35,188 nt of DNA from Gemmatimonadota bacterium (GTDB taxonomy: Bacteria > Gemmatimonadota > Gemmatimonadetes > Gemmatimonadales > Gemmatimonadaceae). Positions 3,961-34,890 of the stretch are shown here, one piece after another; the first letter of the stretch is position 1; each line of letters starts with the position of its first letter. Where the stretch lies: positions 1 through 35,188 of the forward strand of contig JANYKA010000156.1 of the NCBI GenBank assembly GCA_025358315.1. Reading direction: 5' to 3'. The notes under the pieces were generated by a model. It saw only the letters and a program-made list of their open reading frames with translations, ran no database searches and was not told the DNA's origin. Both the position numbers and the translations under genes were made by a program.

Positions 3961-4451
3961 GTGGCGGGCATGCCTTCGAATTTCTTCTTGAGCGCGGTCG
4001 CGACTACAGGATGCACAAGACTCGTCACATCGCCATTGAACCGCGCCACTTCGCGCACCAGGCTGGAACTGATATAGGTCGTATCGAGCGACGGCACCAT
4101 GAACACCGTCTCCACATCGGGCGAGAGGTGCCGGTTCATCAGTGCCATTTGATATTCATATTCAAAGTCGCTCGCCGCCCGCAACCCACGGATAATCATC
4201 TTCACTTTTTGCGACTTGGCGAACTCGATGAGCAGTCCCTTGAAATGCACGACTTCGACGCGCGGATCATTCTCCGCCGCGGCGCGAATCAACGCCACGC
4301 GTTCTTCAATAGAGAACAGCGGCTGCTTGGACGCACTGGTCGCCACCGCAACCACCAGCCGATCAACGAACGACAGACTGCGCCGGATCAGATCGGCGTG
4401 GCCGTTGGTGATCGGATCGAAACTTCCGGCGTACATCGCGACATTTGGCAT
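3957..4451 (-). CDS. coaD: pantetheine-phosphate adenylyltransferase
   Basis: [20 protein letters not shown] and [15 protein letters not shown] motifs; length 164 aa. Confidence 0.96.
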
Positions 4452-4462
4452 TCAGTGGTCAC

Positions 4463-4987
4463 TCACAGTCGGTAAAAAGTGATTGCGGTAGCGCCATAGC
4501 GGCGGGTGTCAGCAGGAGAACCACCATCGGGCATTGCCAGTCGCGCTTCGTGCTCCACTCCAAAGATCGTCGCAAATGGCTCGGCGAGCCAGAGCTTGGC
4601 CAAAGCCACGGCCAGTTCCTGCCGGTACGGCGGATCGGCAAAGGCCACGTCGTATGGCTCCGCTCGTGCACCCTCGGCGAATTTCACGGCATCGTCTCTG
4701 TGAATCCTACAGCGCTCTCCGGCGCCCAGCAGGGCGACATTGCTTTCCAGTACGCGTATCGTGCGGGGATCGTCCTCGACGAAATCCACGAACCCCGCCC
4801 CTCGGGAAAGTGCCTCGAGCCCCAGCGCGCCGGATCCGGCGCAGAGGTCCAATACCCGAGCCCCCGGCAGACTTCCGTGCACGATGCTCATCCATGCCTC
4901 GCGCACCCGATCGGCCGTCGGCCGTACGGCATCGGTTTTCGGTGCCGCAATGAGACGGCCTCGCCAGGCGCCGGCAATTATTCTCAC
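4463..4987 (-). CDS. rsmD: 16S rRNA (guanine966-N2)-methyltransferase
   Basis: MRIIAGAWRGRLI...RPTADRVREAWMSI, VLDLCAGSGALGLEALSRGA, FADPPY. Confidence 0.94.
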   Translation of the reverse strand: MRIIAGAWRGRLIAAPKTDAVRPTADRVREAWMSIVHGSLPGARVLDLCAGSGALGLEALSRGAGFVDFVEDDPRTIRVLESNVALLGAGERCRIHRDDAVKFAEGARAEPYDVAFADPPYRQELAVALAKLWLAEPFATIFGVEHEARLAMPDGGSPADTRRYGATAITFYRL

Positions 4988-12607: not shown

Positions 12608-12963
12608 GATGAGTGTTGAGTGGGAGAATGAGTGCTGAGTGCGAGACTAGTGGGAGAAAGGCGTGGGAGAGGAGTGGGAGACGGTAGTGGGAGAGCGCCC
12701 GGGATAGGCTGGTTTCTCTCTCCCACTCGTCTCCCACTCCCTCCCACTCAATGCCTCAGTGAAGCCCGTTGCCTCCGGCCATAGACAGAGGCTTATAGAT
12801 CCGGAGCCCCCCGCACAGAACTGTCGTGCCCCGCCGAACGAGTGCGAGAGAGCACCAGCCCACCCCCCAGAAGCTCTCCCACTACCGTCTCCCACTCCTC
12901 TCCCACTCCCGTCTCCCACCAGTCTCGCACTCAGCACTCCTACTCCCACTCAGCACTCGCACT
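12608..12963. repeat. Family 1 (GTGGGAG) palindromic element, copy 2: L arm about 12608-12696, R arm about 12873-12963, structured non-coding loop
   Basis: Reverse complement of atgagtgttgagtgggagaatgagtgctgagtgcgagactagtgggagaaaggcgtgggagaggagtgggagacggtagtgggagagc matches the right arm gctctcccactaccgtctcccactcctctcccac...tcgcactcagcactcctactcccactcagcactc almost throughout. Confidence 0.93.
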
Positions 12964-18986: not shown

Positions 18987-19095
18987 GCGAGTGGTGAGTG
19001 GGAGTAGGAGTGCTGAGTGCGAGACTAGTGGGAGAGAGGAGTGGGAGAGGCGTGGGAGACGGTAGTGGGAGATGAGTGGGAGACTGGAGTGGGCG
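18987..19095. repeat. Family 1 element, copy 3: R-type arm
   Basis: gcgagtggtgagtgggagtaggagtgctgagtgcgagactagtgggagagaggagtgggagaggcgtgggagacggtagtgggagatgag; inverted partner at 19977-20066. Confidence 0.92.
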
Positions 19096-19097
19096 AC

Positions 19098-19847
19098 TTA
19101 CGGATTCACTGCTAGCTGAAATCGCGCCGCCAGCACTCCTGAAGAAATCTCACTGCTCGTCGTACTGTTCACTGCGTCGATCGTTTGGATGTAAAACCGG
19201 TAGGTTCCCGCCACCGTCGGTGTGCCTAATAGCACACCCCGCCCCGAAATTGAAATTCCTGGCGGTAGTGTTCCCGATGCCAACGCCCATCGATATGACG
19301 GCGTACCGCCGCCGGTGATAATTGACGCGGCGTACGAAGCACCAACTTTGCCGGTCGGCAGGTAGTCAATGTGCTGGTTGGTCAGCCCGGCACTCGCACA
19401 CGGGTTGAACGCGGCCGGGTTGCTGCTGCAGGTGCTGGTCAAGTCGATCGCTACCCGACCGGAGCGAACTGTGCCGTGGTCGTCATTGACGTCAACGAAC
19501 AACGTGTATGTCCCCTGTCGTAGCGTGGTCGACCGACCCGTGACGTAGCCCTGCAGCGAGTTGATGGCGATAACGGGGTGAGGCTGCGCGGACCCCGGTG
19601 TCAACGTCCACGTGTAACCGGAGAGCACTTGGCCACCAGTTGCCACGATGGTGAGCGGATCAACATGGCTGAACGCGCCTCCATTCAGATCGATTTGACC
19701 GTACACAACCTGACCGGGAAAAATCGCCAGCGTGCTGGCCGTCTCAACGACAGGAATATCCACTGTCGGGATCAAATTCGGACAGCTCGTGAGACATAAA
19801 AGGCAGACAGTTCCAAGTACGCGAATGGCGCCTGAAGTTCTGATCAT
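19098..19847 (-). CDS. putative lipoprotein with Ig-like (He_PIG-type) domain
   Basis: Signal peptide with lipobox-like LTSC (MIRTSGAIRVLGTVCLLCLTSC); GTPSYRWALASGTLPPGISISGRGVLLGTPTVAGTYRFYIQTID resembles putative-Ig repeats. Start set at the internal Met of ORF 19098..19874. Confidence 0.7.
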   Translation of the reverse strand: MIRTSGAIRVLGTVCLLCLTSCPNLIPTVDIPVVETASTLAIFPGQVVYGQIDLNGGAFSHVDPLTIVATGGQVLSGYTWTLTPGSAQPHPVIAINSLQGYVTGRSTTLRQGTYTLFVDVNDDHGTVRSGRVAIDLTSTCSSNPAAFNPCASAGLTNQHIDYLPTGKVGASYAASIITGGGTPSYRWALASGTLPPGISISGRGVLLGTPTVAGTYRFYIQTIDAVNSTTSSEISSGVLAARFQLAVNP

Positions 19848-19976
19848 GGCTTTTTCTCCCGGAGTTTCTGACACTCAAGACTGCGGCAGTAGCCTCTCGC
19901 TTGTCAATCTGCCACCGGAGAGAGCCTCGTGAGTATGCGAGAGTGCGAGCGAGTGCGAGCGAGAAACAACAGCTAC

Positions 19977-20066
19977 ACTCTCCCACTACCGTCTCCCACG
20001 CCTCTCCCACTCCCGTCTCCCACCAGTCTCGCACTCAGCACTCCTACTCCCACTCAACACTCATCA
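19977..20066. repeat. Family 1 element, copy 3: L-type arm (inverted relative to 18987-19095)
   Basis: ctctcccactaccgtctcccacgcctctcccactcccgtctcccaccagtctcgcactcagcactcctactcccactcaacactcatca; near-perfect reverse complement of the left arm. Confidence 0.92.
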
Positions 20067-30764: not shown

Positions 30765-31754
30765 CTAGCGCGCGAGCCGAACCTCGCCAACAATCTCATT
30801 GCGCGTGTTGCGAATCGGCTTGTGCGCCCACTCCGCCATGCGGGGAGTCAACGTCTCCGGCAACTCCCCCAACAACTGCAACGCCCGGATCACCGCGATG
30901 TGCTGCGCACGCAACGCGCCGTCCTCTACCTTAATCGCAATCCCAATCCCCGATTCCGGAATCGCCAGCGAGTGCACGCCCTCGGCGCCCACCTTGGCAA
31001 TCACCCGACCGCCAGTCTCCTGCAATATCATCGTGTCGAAACGATCCGTGCCACCAATTAAATGCGGATGGGCGCGCATCGCCGCGGCGATGCGCGACGG
31101 AAGTTCTTCGCCCGCTTGTACGGCGCGCGCCCAACGCGAGTAGGCCAGCGCCATCCGGTCGATCGGCAACGCCATCACCACAACGCCGCAGCCATCAACG
31201 CCGATCGGCATGTCATCAACACCGACGCCACTCCACGCCGCGACTTCGTTCAGGCAACTGCGCTGCACCGGATGCTCGGCGCGTTCGTATCCCTGCAGCG
31301 CCCAACCGGCAGTGTACGCGCGGCCGAGCATCGCGGCGTGCTTGCCTGAACAATTATTGTGTAAGCGCGAATATTGGCGACCACTCTCGCGAGCCATCTT
31401 GACGCCGCGCGCCGAGAGAGGCTCGTGCGGGCCGCAAGCCAGATCGCCCTCTTCCAAGCCCATCGACGCGAGCATGCGCTCGACCACCACAAGATGTTCG
31501 GGCTCGCCACCGTGCGAGGCGCAGGCGAGGGCGAGTTCCTCGTCGCCCCAACCGAGTTTGTCGAATCCGCCGGAGGTAAGAAACGGGAGGACTTGAAACA
31601 TCTTGGAGCAGGACCGCCACATCGTCAACATCGAATGATCGTGGGCGGTAGCGATCAAGGCTTCATTCGGACCGATGACGGCAGCGTGAACCAAGTGCCG
31701 GGATTCGATGGTATCAGCGCGGGTTACTACTACGTCCAGGGCGAGCGGGATCAT
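30765..31754 (-). CDS. asparaginase (ReAV/AnsA-type, COG4448-like)
   Basis: VVVTRADTIESRHLVHAAVIG, RSCSKMFQVLPFL, RLHNNCSGKHAAMLGRAYTAGW. Confidence 0.87.
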   Translation of the reverse strand: MIPLALDVVVTRADTIESRHLVHAAVIGPNEALIATAHDHSMLTMWRSCSKMFQVLPFLTSGGFDKLGWGDEELALACASHGGEPEHLVVVERMLASMGLEEGDLACGPHEPLSARGVKMARESGRQYSRLHNNCSGKHAAMLGRAYTAGWALQGYERAEHPVQRSCLNEVAAWSGVGVDDMPIGVDGCGVVVMALPIDRMALAYSRWARAVQAGEELPSRIAAAMRAHPHLIGGTDRFDTMILQETGGRVIAKVGAEGVHSLAIPESGIGIAIKVEDGALRAQHIAVIRALQLLGELPETLTPRMAEWAHKPIRNTRNEIVGEVRLAR

Positions 31755-31785: not shown

Positions 31786-31970
31786 TGAAAGGGCTTGGGG
31801 GATTACGGGGCGGACGGCGGACAGGGAGTCACCTATTGGTCGAGTTTTTTGGGAAAGGGCTTGGGGGATTACTGGGCGGACGGCGGACAGTGATTCACTG
31901 ATGGGTCGGGGTGGTGCGAAAGGTCGAGGGGGGATTACTGGGCGGACGGCGGTCAGCGGATTCGGATGGC
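31786..31970 (+). repeat. Family 4 tandem array, left arm (three units at about 31788, 31854 and 31919; period 66 then 65 bp)
   Basis: Core gggggattac(g/t)gggcggacggcgg(a/t)cag repeated three times, preceded by aaagg(g/t)c. Confidence 0.95.
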
Positions 31971-32016
31971 GTTGAAATGATTGTGTCGAATGCGATTCAC
32001 GATACGATCGTGCGGG

Positions 32017-32463
32017 ATGAGGGATTCTGTTTTTGAAGGGCAATATGAAAAGTGGGCGGCGGCGCAGCCGGAGTTGCTTCGCGCAGATATTCTGTGGGCA
32101 TTGGATTCGTACCGGCTCGCGCTCTACTTGGTGGAACTCTCGACGACTGATATGCGGCGGGCGCGCGACGGCGATCTTGCAGCCGCTCGACGGCAATTAT
32201 TGAAGGCCGTAATTTCTATCAGTGCGAATATCGCCGAGGGGTACAGTCGCCCCACAATGGCAGATCGATCGCGATTCTTCGCGTACGCATTGGGGTCCAC
32301 CAGGGAAGCCGTCACCTGGTACGCGTCCTTCCGCATTTCACTGGGCGACACAACCCTGTTCGCCCGCTACACCCACCTAGCCCGCCTCCGCCGAATCCTA
32401 ATTGCGACTCAGCGCACCCAACATTTCCATCTCCCCCCCAACACCTTCACCCCCGGGATTTAA
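32017..32463 (+). CDS. four-helix bundle protein (S23 / 23S rRNA intervening-sequence protein family, TIGR02436-like)
   Basis: LLKAVISISANIAEGYSRPTMADRSRFFAYALGSTREAVTWY matches the family signature (SIxxNIAEGxxR...FxxxALGSxxE). The ORF track begins at TTG 31981; ATG 32017 (MRDSVFEGQYEKW) is the likely start. Confidence 0.9.
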   Translation: MRDSVFEGQYEKWAAAQPELLRADILWALDSYRLALYLVELSTTDMRRARDGDLAAARRQLLKAVISISANIAEGYSRPTMADRSRFFAYALGSTREAVTWYASFRISLGDTTLFARYTHLARLRRILIATQRTQHFHLPPNTFTPGI

Positions 32464-32465
32464 AC

Positions 32466-32645
32466 GCTGTCCGCCGTCCGCTCAGTAGGCCTCCACGACC
32501 TTTCCCAGAAACCCGACCAACAAGGTGACTCCCTGTCCGCCGTCCGCTCAGTAATCCCCCGCGACCTTTCGCAGCAACCCGACCCAACAATGAATCCCTG
32601 TCCGCCGTCCGCTCAGTAATCCCCCACGACCCTCCCGCTGACTCC
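32466..32645 (-). repeat. Family 4 tandem array, right arm (three units starting 32467, 32533 and 32598; periods 66 and 65 bp), inverted relative to the left arm
   Basis: ctgtccgccgtccgctcagta repeated three times; reverse complement matches the left array. Confidence 0.95.
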
Positions 32646-33647
32646 CTATCCCACAACCCCCAAATCAAACGCCTCCAAAACCTCTCCCACTGAAACAGTA
32701 GCCGCCCCCAATTTCCCGACTTCAACTCCAGCAGCATAGTTAGCAATCACCGCCGCCTCCAATGCCGTCGCCCCCGACGCCAACATCGCCGCCAGATAAG
32801 CTGTGACCGTGTCCCCCGCTCCCACTACGTCATACACTTCGCGGGCGGTAGTCGGAATCCGATGCACACCCGTCGCGCCTTTCTCGATCAGCGCCATTCC
32901 GTTTTCGCTCAGCGTGAGCAAAATGGATTCGACGCCGAGTCGTTCAACTAAAGCCGGCAACGTCTCCGGATGTTCCACGTCGATGGCCGCGCCGAGTGCG
33001 GCCTCGAGTTCGCGACGGTTCGGTTTGAAGACAGTCGCGCCGGTGTAGGAGAAAAAATTGCGATACTTAGGATCCACAACCACCGGAATTTTCTTTTTGG
33101 CAGCAATGGCGAGCGCGTGCGCAATAACGGCCGGCACCAGCACTCCCTTGTTGTAGTCCTCAAGAATCAACGCGTCCGCATCACCGAGCGCTTTGGTAAT
33201 CGCGCTGTTGAGCAGTCCGATTTCGGCGGGTGTGCAATCTTCGTCCACTTCTTCGTCCACCCTCACCAACTGCTGAGCGCGGGCGAGAACTCTCGTTTTT
33301 GTCGTCGTCGGGCGATTGACTGCCACGAGCCCGCGCGTGTCGCCGCCGATGGCCATCATCATGTCCCGCAGTTGCTGCGCGGACTGATCCTTCCCCACCG
33401 TGGCGACGAGTTCAACCTGAGCGCCGAGCGCTGCGACATTTTGGGCGACGTTGGCGGCGCCGCCGAGTGCGTGGCGTTTATCGCGAACCCTCACCACCGG
33501 CACCGGGGCTTCGGGCGAAATGCGGTCGACGTCGCCGCGCAAATACACGTCGAGCATCGCGTCGCCGATGACAACAATGCGATGCTTCGGTGACAGCGCG
33601 AGGAGCGCCGCGATGCGGTCGCGCGAGATTGGCTGAGTAGAGGGCAC
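32646..33647 (-). CDS. RfaE1/HldE-type D-glycero-beta-D-manno-heptose-7-phosphate kinase (PfkB family)
   Basis: VVIGDAMLDVYLRGDVDRISPEAPVPVV, LGGAANVAQNVAALG, DVVGAGDTVTAYLAAMLASG. Confidence 0.9.
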   Translation of the reverse strand: MPSTQPISRDRIAALLALSPKHRIVVIGDAMLDVYLRGDVDRISPEAPVPVVRVRDKRHALGGAANVAQNVAALGAQVELVATVGKDQSAQQLRDMMMAIGGDTRGLVAVNRPTTTKTRVLARAQQLVRVDEEVDEDCTPAEIGLLNSAITKALGDADALILEDYNKGVLVPAVIAHALAIAAKKKIPVVVDPKYRNFFSYTGATVFKPNRRELEAALGAAIDVEHPETLPALVERLGVESILLTLSENGMALIEKGATGVHRIPTTAREVYDVVGAGDTVTAYLAAMLASGATALEAAVIANYAAGVEVGKLGAATVSVGEVLEAFDLGVVG

Positions 33648-33732: not shown

Positions 33733-34656
33733 GTGACCCATTCTCCCCCACCCGTCCGCGCCCGCCCGGCGATCGCGCCCCTCGTTCTCGTGGCCGCCGT
33801 ACTCGGCATCTCGATCTCCGGCCCCCTCGTCCGGCTCTCGCATTCCGACCCGCTGGTGATCGCGCTCTGGAGAATCGGGATTTCGATTGCCATCATTTAT
33901 TCCATCCTGCTCTTCAATGGGCAATGGAAACAGTGGCGCGCCCTCTCGCGTAGCGATCTCCTCGCCGCCGTCGCCGCCGGCGGATTTCTCGCGCTGCATT
34001 TCTGGAGCTGGATTTCGTCTATCGGGATGACGTCTGTCGCGGCGAGTGTCGTGCTCGTTAATATCCATCCGATCATCGTCGTCTTTGGGTCCGCACTTTG
34101 GCTTGGGGAGAAACCCACCCGCCCCCAACTGATCGGGATTGGCGTCTCCCTGATCGGTGCCCTCATACTCGGCTACGGCGACGCCCGCGGTGCCGCTACA
34201 GTCGCCGGGTCACGGGCGCTGATGGGCGATGCACTGGCAGTCGTCGGCGCCGTAACCGTATCTGCCTACCTACTACTCGGCAGACGCGTCCGCCAGAAAC
34301 TGGATCTCTGGCCGTACGTGGGATTCGTGTATTCCGTCTGCTTTGTGATCGTACTGGCGATTGCCCTCGTGCGCGGCGTGCAAATCATCCCAACCGGAGC
34401 AACGGCACCGCGTGAGCTCGCCCTCTTCGCCGCGATGGCACTCGGCCCGATGATGTTGGGCCACACAGGATTCAATTGGGCATTACGATATTTCCCGGCC
34501 TACTTCGTCAGTCTGGCTGCGCTCTGTGAGCCGGTAGGGGCTACCATATTGGCCGCGGTGATTCCGGGGATTGCCGAAATGCCTGGGGGGCTCACCCTAA
34601 TCGGCGGGGCGGTTGTGCTTGGGGGGATTGGACTGACTGCGGGCAGGAAGAAATGA
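33733..34656 (+). CDS. EamA/DMT-superfamily transporter
   Basis: Ten-TM-like hydrophobic profile, two EamA-like halves (WRIGISIAIIYSILL..., GFNWALRYFPAYFVSLAALCEPVGATILAAVI). The ORF track begins at 33676; GTG 33733 is plausible. Confidence 0.85.
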   Translation: MTHSPPPVRARPAIAPLVLVAAVLGISISGPLVRLSHSDPLVIALWRIGISIAIIYSILLFNGQWKQWRALSRSDLLAAVAAGGFLALHFWSWISSIGMTSVAASVVLVNIHPIIVVFGSALWLGEKPTRPQLIGIGVSLIGALILGYGDARGAATVAGSRALMGDALAVVGAVTVSAYLLLGRRVRQKLDLWPYVGFVYSVCFVIVLAIALVRGVQIIPTGATAPRELALFAAMALGPMMLGHTGFNWALRYFPAYFVSLAALCEPVGATILAAVIPGIAEMPGGLTLIGGAVVLGGIGLTAGRKK

Positions 34657-34890
34657 GTGTTGAGTGGGAGTATGAGTGCTGAGTGCGAGACCAGTGGGAG
34701 AAAGGAGTGGGAGAGGAGTGGGAGAAAGTAGTGGGAGAGTGAAACCGTAGTTTCTCTCTCCCACTTATCCCCCTCTTATCTCCCACTAAACTCCCACTGA
34801 TCTCCCACTGATACCTCCCACTCCTCTCCCACTCCTTTCTCCCACTGGTCTCGCACTCAGCACTCATACTCCCACTCAGCACTCGCACTG
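34654..34890. repeat. Family 1 palindromic element, copy 4 (complete, short loop)
   Basis: Left tgagtgttgagtgggagtatgagtgctgagtgcgagaccagtgggagaaaggagtgggagaggagtgggagaaag; right ctcccactcctctcccactcctttctcccactggtctcgcactcagcactcatactcccactcagcactcgcact. Confidence 0.93.

Follow-up and report, generated by a model that had tools for sequence, protein, structure and literature searches.

S23-type genes between inverted repeat arrays: a probable REPIN-like family of mobile elements without a recognisable transposase

A gene encoding an S23-type four-helix-bundle protein was located between inverted repeat arrays in the window, that is, the whole 35,188-nt stretch of DNA that was analysed. This stretch is a single contig from a fragmented assembly of 2.8 Mb, and the genes it carries suggest, by inference, an origin in the Gemmatimonadota. 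Sequence comparisons with related and distant genomes established the association of S23 genes with such arms, the cognate nature of the arms, the occurrence of gene-less copies, the presence or absence of elements at conserved sites, and purifying selection on the S23 protein. These S23 hairpin elements, defined here as a single S23-type gene with an array of short tandem repeats, usually heptamers, on either side, the two arrays being inverted relative to each other, are probably a REPIN-like family of mobile elements built on the S23 protein, with no recognisable transposase and with copying driven by S23. Recognition of the arms by the S23 protein and S23-driven copying are inferred.

The element between the asparaginase-like gene and hldE

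The features of the element are listed in Table 1. The direct core copies (31797-31824, 31863-31890 and 31929-31956) are 93-96% identical with spacings of 66 and 66 bp, and the spacings of the inverted core copies are 66 and 65 bp. Complementarity between the arms was 80% over 109 nt (segments 31787-31895 and 32462-32570) and 86% over 81 nt (segments 31852-31932 and 32556-32636). These coordinates and complementarities confirm the description, in the initial annotation, of three 65/66-bp repeats before the gene and three inverted copies after it, as the ORF coordinates do for its placement of the TAA stop codon (32461-32463) three bases short of the right array. Its further claim, that the gene is enclosed by three-unit arrays, held for the enclosure and failed for the extent of the right arm, which continues with an extra partial unit to 32651 and overlaps the stop codon of hldE. 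RNA folding of the 859-nt element was 14 s.d. better than that of dinucleotide shuffles. The dominant period of the element is 66; a 7-nt period is only weakly expressed (lag 7, 0.34), with a local lag-7 identity of 0.52 in the core GGGCGGACGGCGGA; the 66-bp repeats are an atypical variant of the usual tandem-heptamer arms.

The S23 gene is the sole gene within the element. S23 proteins have, to our knowledge, no known catalytic motif, and their four-helix-bundle fold is common to S23 and Avd. The deduced protein scored 49.8 bits against TIGR02436 (cut-off 24) and 44.6 bits against PF05635 (cut-off 33.8), and it qualifies as a member of the S23/TIGR02436 family since both scores exceed the curated cut-offs. 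The start at ATG 32017 is more likely than that at TTG 31981 because conservation with the sister species begins there. Comparison with the gene of the sister species (G012) gave a dN of 0.047 and a dS of 0.53, and the resulting dN/dS of ~0.09 indicates that purifying selection acts on the protein. The solved structures 2GSC (XCC0516) and 2RLD match the S23 family at 136 and 57 bits and belong to the same protein family as the protein described here, although both are listed merely as uncharacterised proteins. XCC0516 is an S23 protein of X. campestris, the organism being inferred from the literature (PMC4990558) and from the gene name.

Table 1. Features of the S23 element, its host genes and the family B copies in the window.
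Feature	Position	Strand	Remark
5' arm, direct 66-bp repeats, G-rich strand	31787-31956	+	TRF score 217
Units of 5' arm	31787-31852, 31853-31918, partial 31919-31956	+	
S23-type four-helix-bundle gene, 148 aa from ATG 32017	32017-32463	+	alternative start TTG 31981
3' arm, inverted repeat copies starting at 32467, 32533 and 32598	32467-32645	-	TRF score 256
Left host gene, asparaginase-like	30765-31754	-	conserved hldE neighbour across genus
Right host gene, hldE/rfaE1-like kinase	32646-33647	-	last codons touch 3' arm
Gene-less hairpin, family B (GAGTGGGAG)	12608-12953		family arms also flank S23 gene on contig C88
Family B arms around Ig-domain (He_PIG) lipoprotein-like ORF	18994-20063		ORF at 19098-19874 (-)
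Gene-less hairpin, family B	34653-34890		immediately past a stop codon

S23 genes and their arms in other genomes

Genes matching TIGR02436 were detected in 63 of 80 relatives, at 0-12 per genome. A search for flanking repeats at other genes of this type, proposed in the initial annotation, found inverted repeats framing 40 of 43 S23 genes in the relatives versus 2 of 170 neighbouring genes at a threshold of 28 bits, and 38 S23 genes versus one neighbouring gene from the same sets at 36 bits. The S23 loci had been picked by HMM score and not by repeats, and were the 43 for which neighbouring genes were available. The S23 intervals were HMM-match coordinates and the control intervals were ORFs, so that the windows compared were not identical; the difference between 40/43 and 2/170 is far larger than this mismatch can account for. 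Since the repeat-gene-repeat pattern recurs at other S23 genes, it is far beyond chance at the locus described here. Scanning some 85,000 species genomes yielded 80 S23 loci in many phyla, two archaeal MAGs among them, and framing inverted repeats were found at 57 of 79 S23 loci versus 12 of 387 shifted control intervals. About a quarter of the cross-phylum S23 genes had no clear inverted repeat, and some of these keep heptamer arrays. Seventeen S23 loci that lack clear arms had no rRNA nearby, indicating that they are not simply cases of rRNA intervening sequences (IVS). The association statistics were not corrected for phylogeny. The plan of a gene between inverted repeats is general and not peculiar to the asparaginase-hldE locus.

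The arms of the cross-phylum loci had a lag-7 identity of 0.72 compared with 0.31 for shuffled arms, and heptamer arrays were present on both sides of 73% of 73 S23 loci versus none of 378 control windows. G exceeded C in the 5' arm of 87 of 95 elements. Examples of the heptamers are GGGATTC (Rhodanobacter), GTAGGCA (Mesorhizobium), GTGGTTA (Ruminococcus) and GGACGGT, the last extending across 247 bp in a planctomycete, with GCGAGTCA a further arm from Granulicella. The heptamer period is weaker in the relatives of the source genome (0.48 at lag 7, plus lags 8, 15, 22 and 29). Two Methanophagales archaeal MAGs carry S23 genes (L232 and L235), the second with 7-nt periodicity on both sides.

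Different S23 genes carry different repeats within each of eight named genomes having 1-13 S23 genes. Among elements of the relatives, arms were alike in all four pairs whose proteins are at least 70% identical; the fraction fell to 1 of 16 for protein identities of 60-70% and to 0 of 540 for those below 60%. The source genome itself contains four S23 genes, three of which have long inverted repeats around them, each set from a different and unrelated family: A, the element described above; B, on contig C88, with 87-bp arms (94%); and C, on contig C163, with arms of about 146 bp and a clear heptamer periodicity. Elements A and C encode S23 proteins that share 56% identity. Cognate pairing of the S23 gene with its arms is well supported by these comparisons.

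Heptanucleotide repeats reported previously, including the STRR of cyanobacteria, GGGAATC of Xanthomonas and TAACTGA of Beggiatoaceae (PMC4679880), are likewise tandem intergenic 7-mers. The Xanthomonas heptamers often form convergent inverted pairs, about 70 in number, as S23 arms do, and the paper is silent on S23 (PMC4692102). The published reports of heptamers mention no S23 and leave the origin open, whereas the arrays of S23 hairpin elements are tied to S23 genes. In a sample of 100 genomes of Xanthomonadaceae, the family of Pseudoxanthomonas, S23 genes were present in 44 and (GGGAWTC)3 arrays in 38. Arrays were present in 32 of the 44 genomes with S23 versus 6 of the 56 without, the six having at most 21 arrays each, and at least 30 arrays were found in 23 of 44 versus 0 of 56 (Fisher 8e-11, shared ancestry ignored). 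Genomes with a single S23 gene contained 8-245 arrays when its arms were GGGAWTC versus 0-45 otherwise (p 3e-4, ancestry again ignored).

Gene-less copies and occupied and vacant sites

Arms of family A gave only short partial matches elsewhere in the source genome. The arms of family B gave 34 hits, nearly all in head-in pairs spaced 25-900 bp; only the pair on C88 contains an S23 gene, and about a dozen head-in pairs are gene-less. Decayed S23 genes were sought inside the gene-less family B elements and none was found. In genome G014, which has 11 S23 genes, one palindromic arm has ~30 dispersed copies and another about five, and a third arm family makes four gene-less hairpins. These results meet a trait of REPINs, namely that the inverted repeats flanking a gene are also dispersed as gene-less inverted pairs (family B and three families of G014). 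Some of the G014 arms at L114 and L115 are palindromes of 118-148 bp, and these have the most dispersed lone copies. Arms are also found around ordinary genes: a recX-like ORF is enclosed by S23-type inverted arms in L045 (about 1408-2318). Since similar arms enclose this ORF and the lipoprotein-like ORF of Table 1, S23-type arms do not occur with S23 alone; such genes could have been enclosed by cargo capture or through a pair of independent insertions.

The junction of hldE and the asparaginase-like gene measures 891 bp in the source genome, 858 bp in the sister species and 23-119 bp in 11 congeners. The element is absent from 11 of the 12 congeners resolved at this junction and is shared by the sister species alone. 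The search for vacant sites here, also suggested in the initial annotation, was answered by these 11 congeners, which have neither the gene nor an array of the family A type; the longest gene-less junction (L154, 119 bp) contains short repeats of another kind. Vacant sites of family B in the sister species were dropped as evidence since most copies are common to both genomes, and the sole apparent vacant site, for 18994-20056 of the window, was not used because the matched locus is merely 68-72% identical.

S23 loci on plasmids are mostly cyanobacterial, and heptamer arms were present at most of the twelve that were read. Near-identity searches followed by alignment identified five pairs of filled and empty sites on Nostocales plasmids, with flanks about 89-100% identical. 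Sites 1 and 5 are occupied by related S23 elements sharing the heptamer GGAGTCA. Putative target duplications are GTAAT (5 bp, site 1), ATG (3 bp, site 4) and an imperfect TTCTA (site 5); they vary in length, and no more than two or three of the five sites hint at one, sites 2 and 3 giving no readable duplication because the junctions have diverged. The heptamer arm of one Nostocales S23 element recurs at 77 positions across 34 plasmid records. No phage-borne copy was matched among 50,697 phage records. Mobility of S23 hairpin elements is well supported by these comparisons, no movement having been seen experimentally. Where other plasmids hold the full element, Nostoc ATCC 53789 has a gene-less hairpin (L371) and Nostoc C052 an internally deleted copy (L369), forms that are likely steps toward non-autonomous elements. 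Several plasmid S23 elements lie within operons (for example cas6|cas4, cas10|cmr3 and nrdB|nrdA). Those with arms inside CRISPR-Cas operons of cyanobacterial plasmids (L352, L356 and L363; cas6|S23|cas4 and cas10|S23|cmr3) may be misread as CRISPR accessory genes.

Known systems, proposed mechanism and rival explanations

REPIN-RAYT systems have in common with S23 hairpin elements one gene between inverted palindromic repeats, gene-specific families and many gene-less inverted pairs, but S23 stands in place of the Y1 HUH transposase and heptamer arrays in place of single REPs. The IVS of 23S rRNA genes share an S23-type ORF between terminal inverted repeats, a trait that the element described here meets, and sporadic presence; those of Leptospira and Coxiella have been called selfish and horizontally transferred (PMC4990558). 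S23 hairpin elements differ from IVS in being intergenic rather than within an rRNA gene, in being multi-copy, and in having element-specific arms of tandem short repeats and dispersed gene-less copies, and excision by RNase III is not known for them. By analogy, REPIN-RAYT is the closest working counterpart, and by protein the closest relative is the rRNA IVS. The element belongs to neither, since tests for the defining transposase and for an rRNA location were both negative: Y1_Tnp (PF01797) was absent from the source genome and all 17 congeners, and the element lies between the asparaginase-like and hldE genes and not in a 23S rRNA gene, the 35,188-nt contig containing no rRNA and no Rfam family at threshold. 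A RAYT acting in trans was ruled out by the lack of Y1_Tnp throughout the genus. An anti-phage defence system was rejected as no PADLOC model fits. Unlike DDE-type IS and MITE elements, the asparaginase-hldE element has no transposase gene of its own; a trans-acting transposase is not excluded. A search of open-access full text, which excluded preprints and most subscription journals, turned up no paper that connects S23 proteins to inverted repeats or heptamers outside rRNA.

In the mechanism we propose, the S23 protein would recognise the arm of its own element, folded into a hairpin of DNA or RNA, and drive copying of this hairpin into further intergenic positions, whether or not the gene is included, filling the role that the RAYT transposase has for REPINs. 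Nicking, copying and joining may be performed by an unrecognised activity of S23 oligomers or by enzymes of host replication and repair, and the tandem units of each arm may be built by nested or slipped rounds of copying. The inference, made in the initial annotation, of an rRNA-independent S23 protein with cognate inverted repeats is supported by the recurrence of the plan and by the gene-less junctions; of the alternatives offered there, a mobile element or an RNA-protein system, mobile behaviour is borne out by the filled and empty sites, and whether DNA or RNA is the form bound remains unresolved.

An RNA role could account for some of the same observations. S23 would bind the hairpin both on the transcript of its own element and on other transcripts bearing copies, affecting RNA stability or termination and not serving as a mobilisation factor, and the spread of hairpin copies would be selected or incidental. 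The very stable predicted RNA hairpin and the purifying selection on the protein are compatible with such a role, as are the operation of rRNA IVS with S23 ORFs at the RNA level via RNase III (PMC4990558) and the regulatory role proposed previously for heptamer repeats (PMC4679880, PMC4692102). It is nonetheless judged unlikely, in that precise insertions of gene plus arms and a patchy distribution of 0-12 copies per genome still demand a mechanism of mobility, and the unrelated repeat in each element is unlike a shared regulon. That S23 is merely a passenger, with arms that are MITE-like or born of slippage and moved by another transposase or by replication errors, must also be weighed, since there are arms without S23, arms around ordinary genes, and GGGAWTC arrays in some S23-free genomes. 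We consider this doubtful at best: the same passenger would have to accompany numerous repeat families, unrelated to one another, across many phyla, arm similarity follows S23 protein similarity, genome-wide arrays are predicted by S23 presence and arm type, and most S23-rich relatives have neither RAYT nor RT.

The last of these points bears also on an RT-dependent retroelement, DGR- or retron-like or other, in which S23 would be an Avd-like accessory and copying would proceed via RNA. The fold in common with Avd and the predicted long transcript hairpin had made it conceivable, and the initial annotation hinted at reverse transcription of the DGR/Avd type. The hint was not borne out, and a DGR/Avd-type element was rejected, because RVT_1 was not found in the source genome or in most S23-rich relatives. 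RVT_1 was present in just 11 of 80 relatives and, within the 18 genomes of the genus, in G017 only; it was absent from G000, G011, G014, G021, G022, G023, G026 and G033, most of which have 8-11 S23 genes, and Y1_Tnp was likewise absent from the last seven. Since Y1_Tnp is missing from the genus and both domains are missing from these seven relatives, there is no general requirement for either RAYT or RT, and the RT-dependent explanation is largely refuted and retained only as highly improbable.

The REPIN-like mobile family built on S23 may have a wider reach, for which the case is evenly poised: that S23 proteins drive a new class of mobile elements without recognisable transposase or RT, that this class is the source of heptanucleotide repeats such as STRR and GGGAATC, and that rRNA IVS are the special case of elements that landed in 23S genes. 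The S23 family seems to be the marker of a hitherto unrecognised class of mobile DNA, and this class seems also to account for the seven-letter repeats in many genomes. If so, a very common family of hypothetical proteins would have a role, the heptamers of cyanobacteria and Xanthomonas an origin, and the 23S rRNA intervening sequences a place within a general class of elements, and movement of DNA without a known recombinase would be implied. The repeat-to-gene rule allows S23 hairpin elements to be detected and annotated automatically.

Two further features concern the relation of the elements to coding sequence. In the relatives the S23 gene tends to run opposite to its neighbours: of 42 loci, 32 have it antisense to the gene downstream and 19 to both adjoining genes (L111-L150 and L035-L037). 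One S23 protein (L148, about 4065-4474) has a C-terminal tail translated from the repeat array (AVDRPAVDRPAVSHPAVQHPAVQHPAV), indicating that arrays can lengthen coding sequence.
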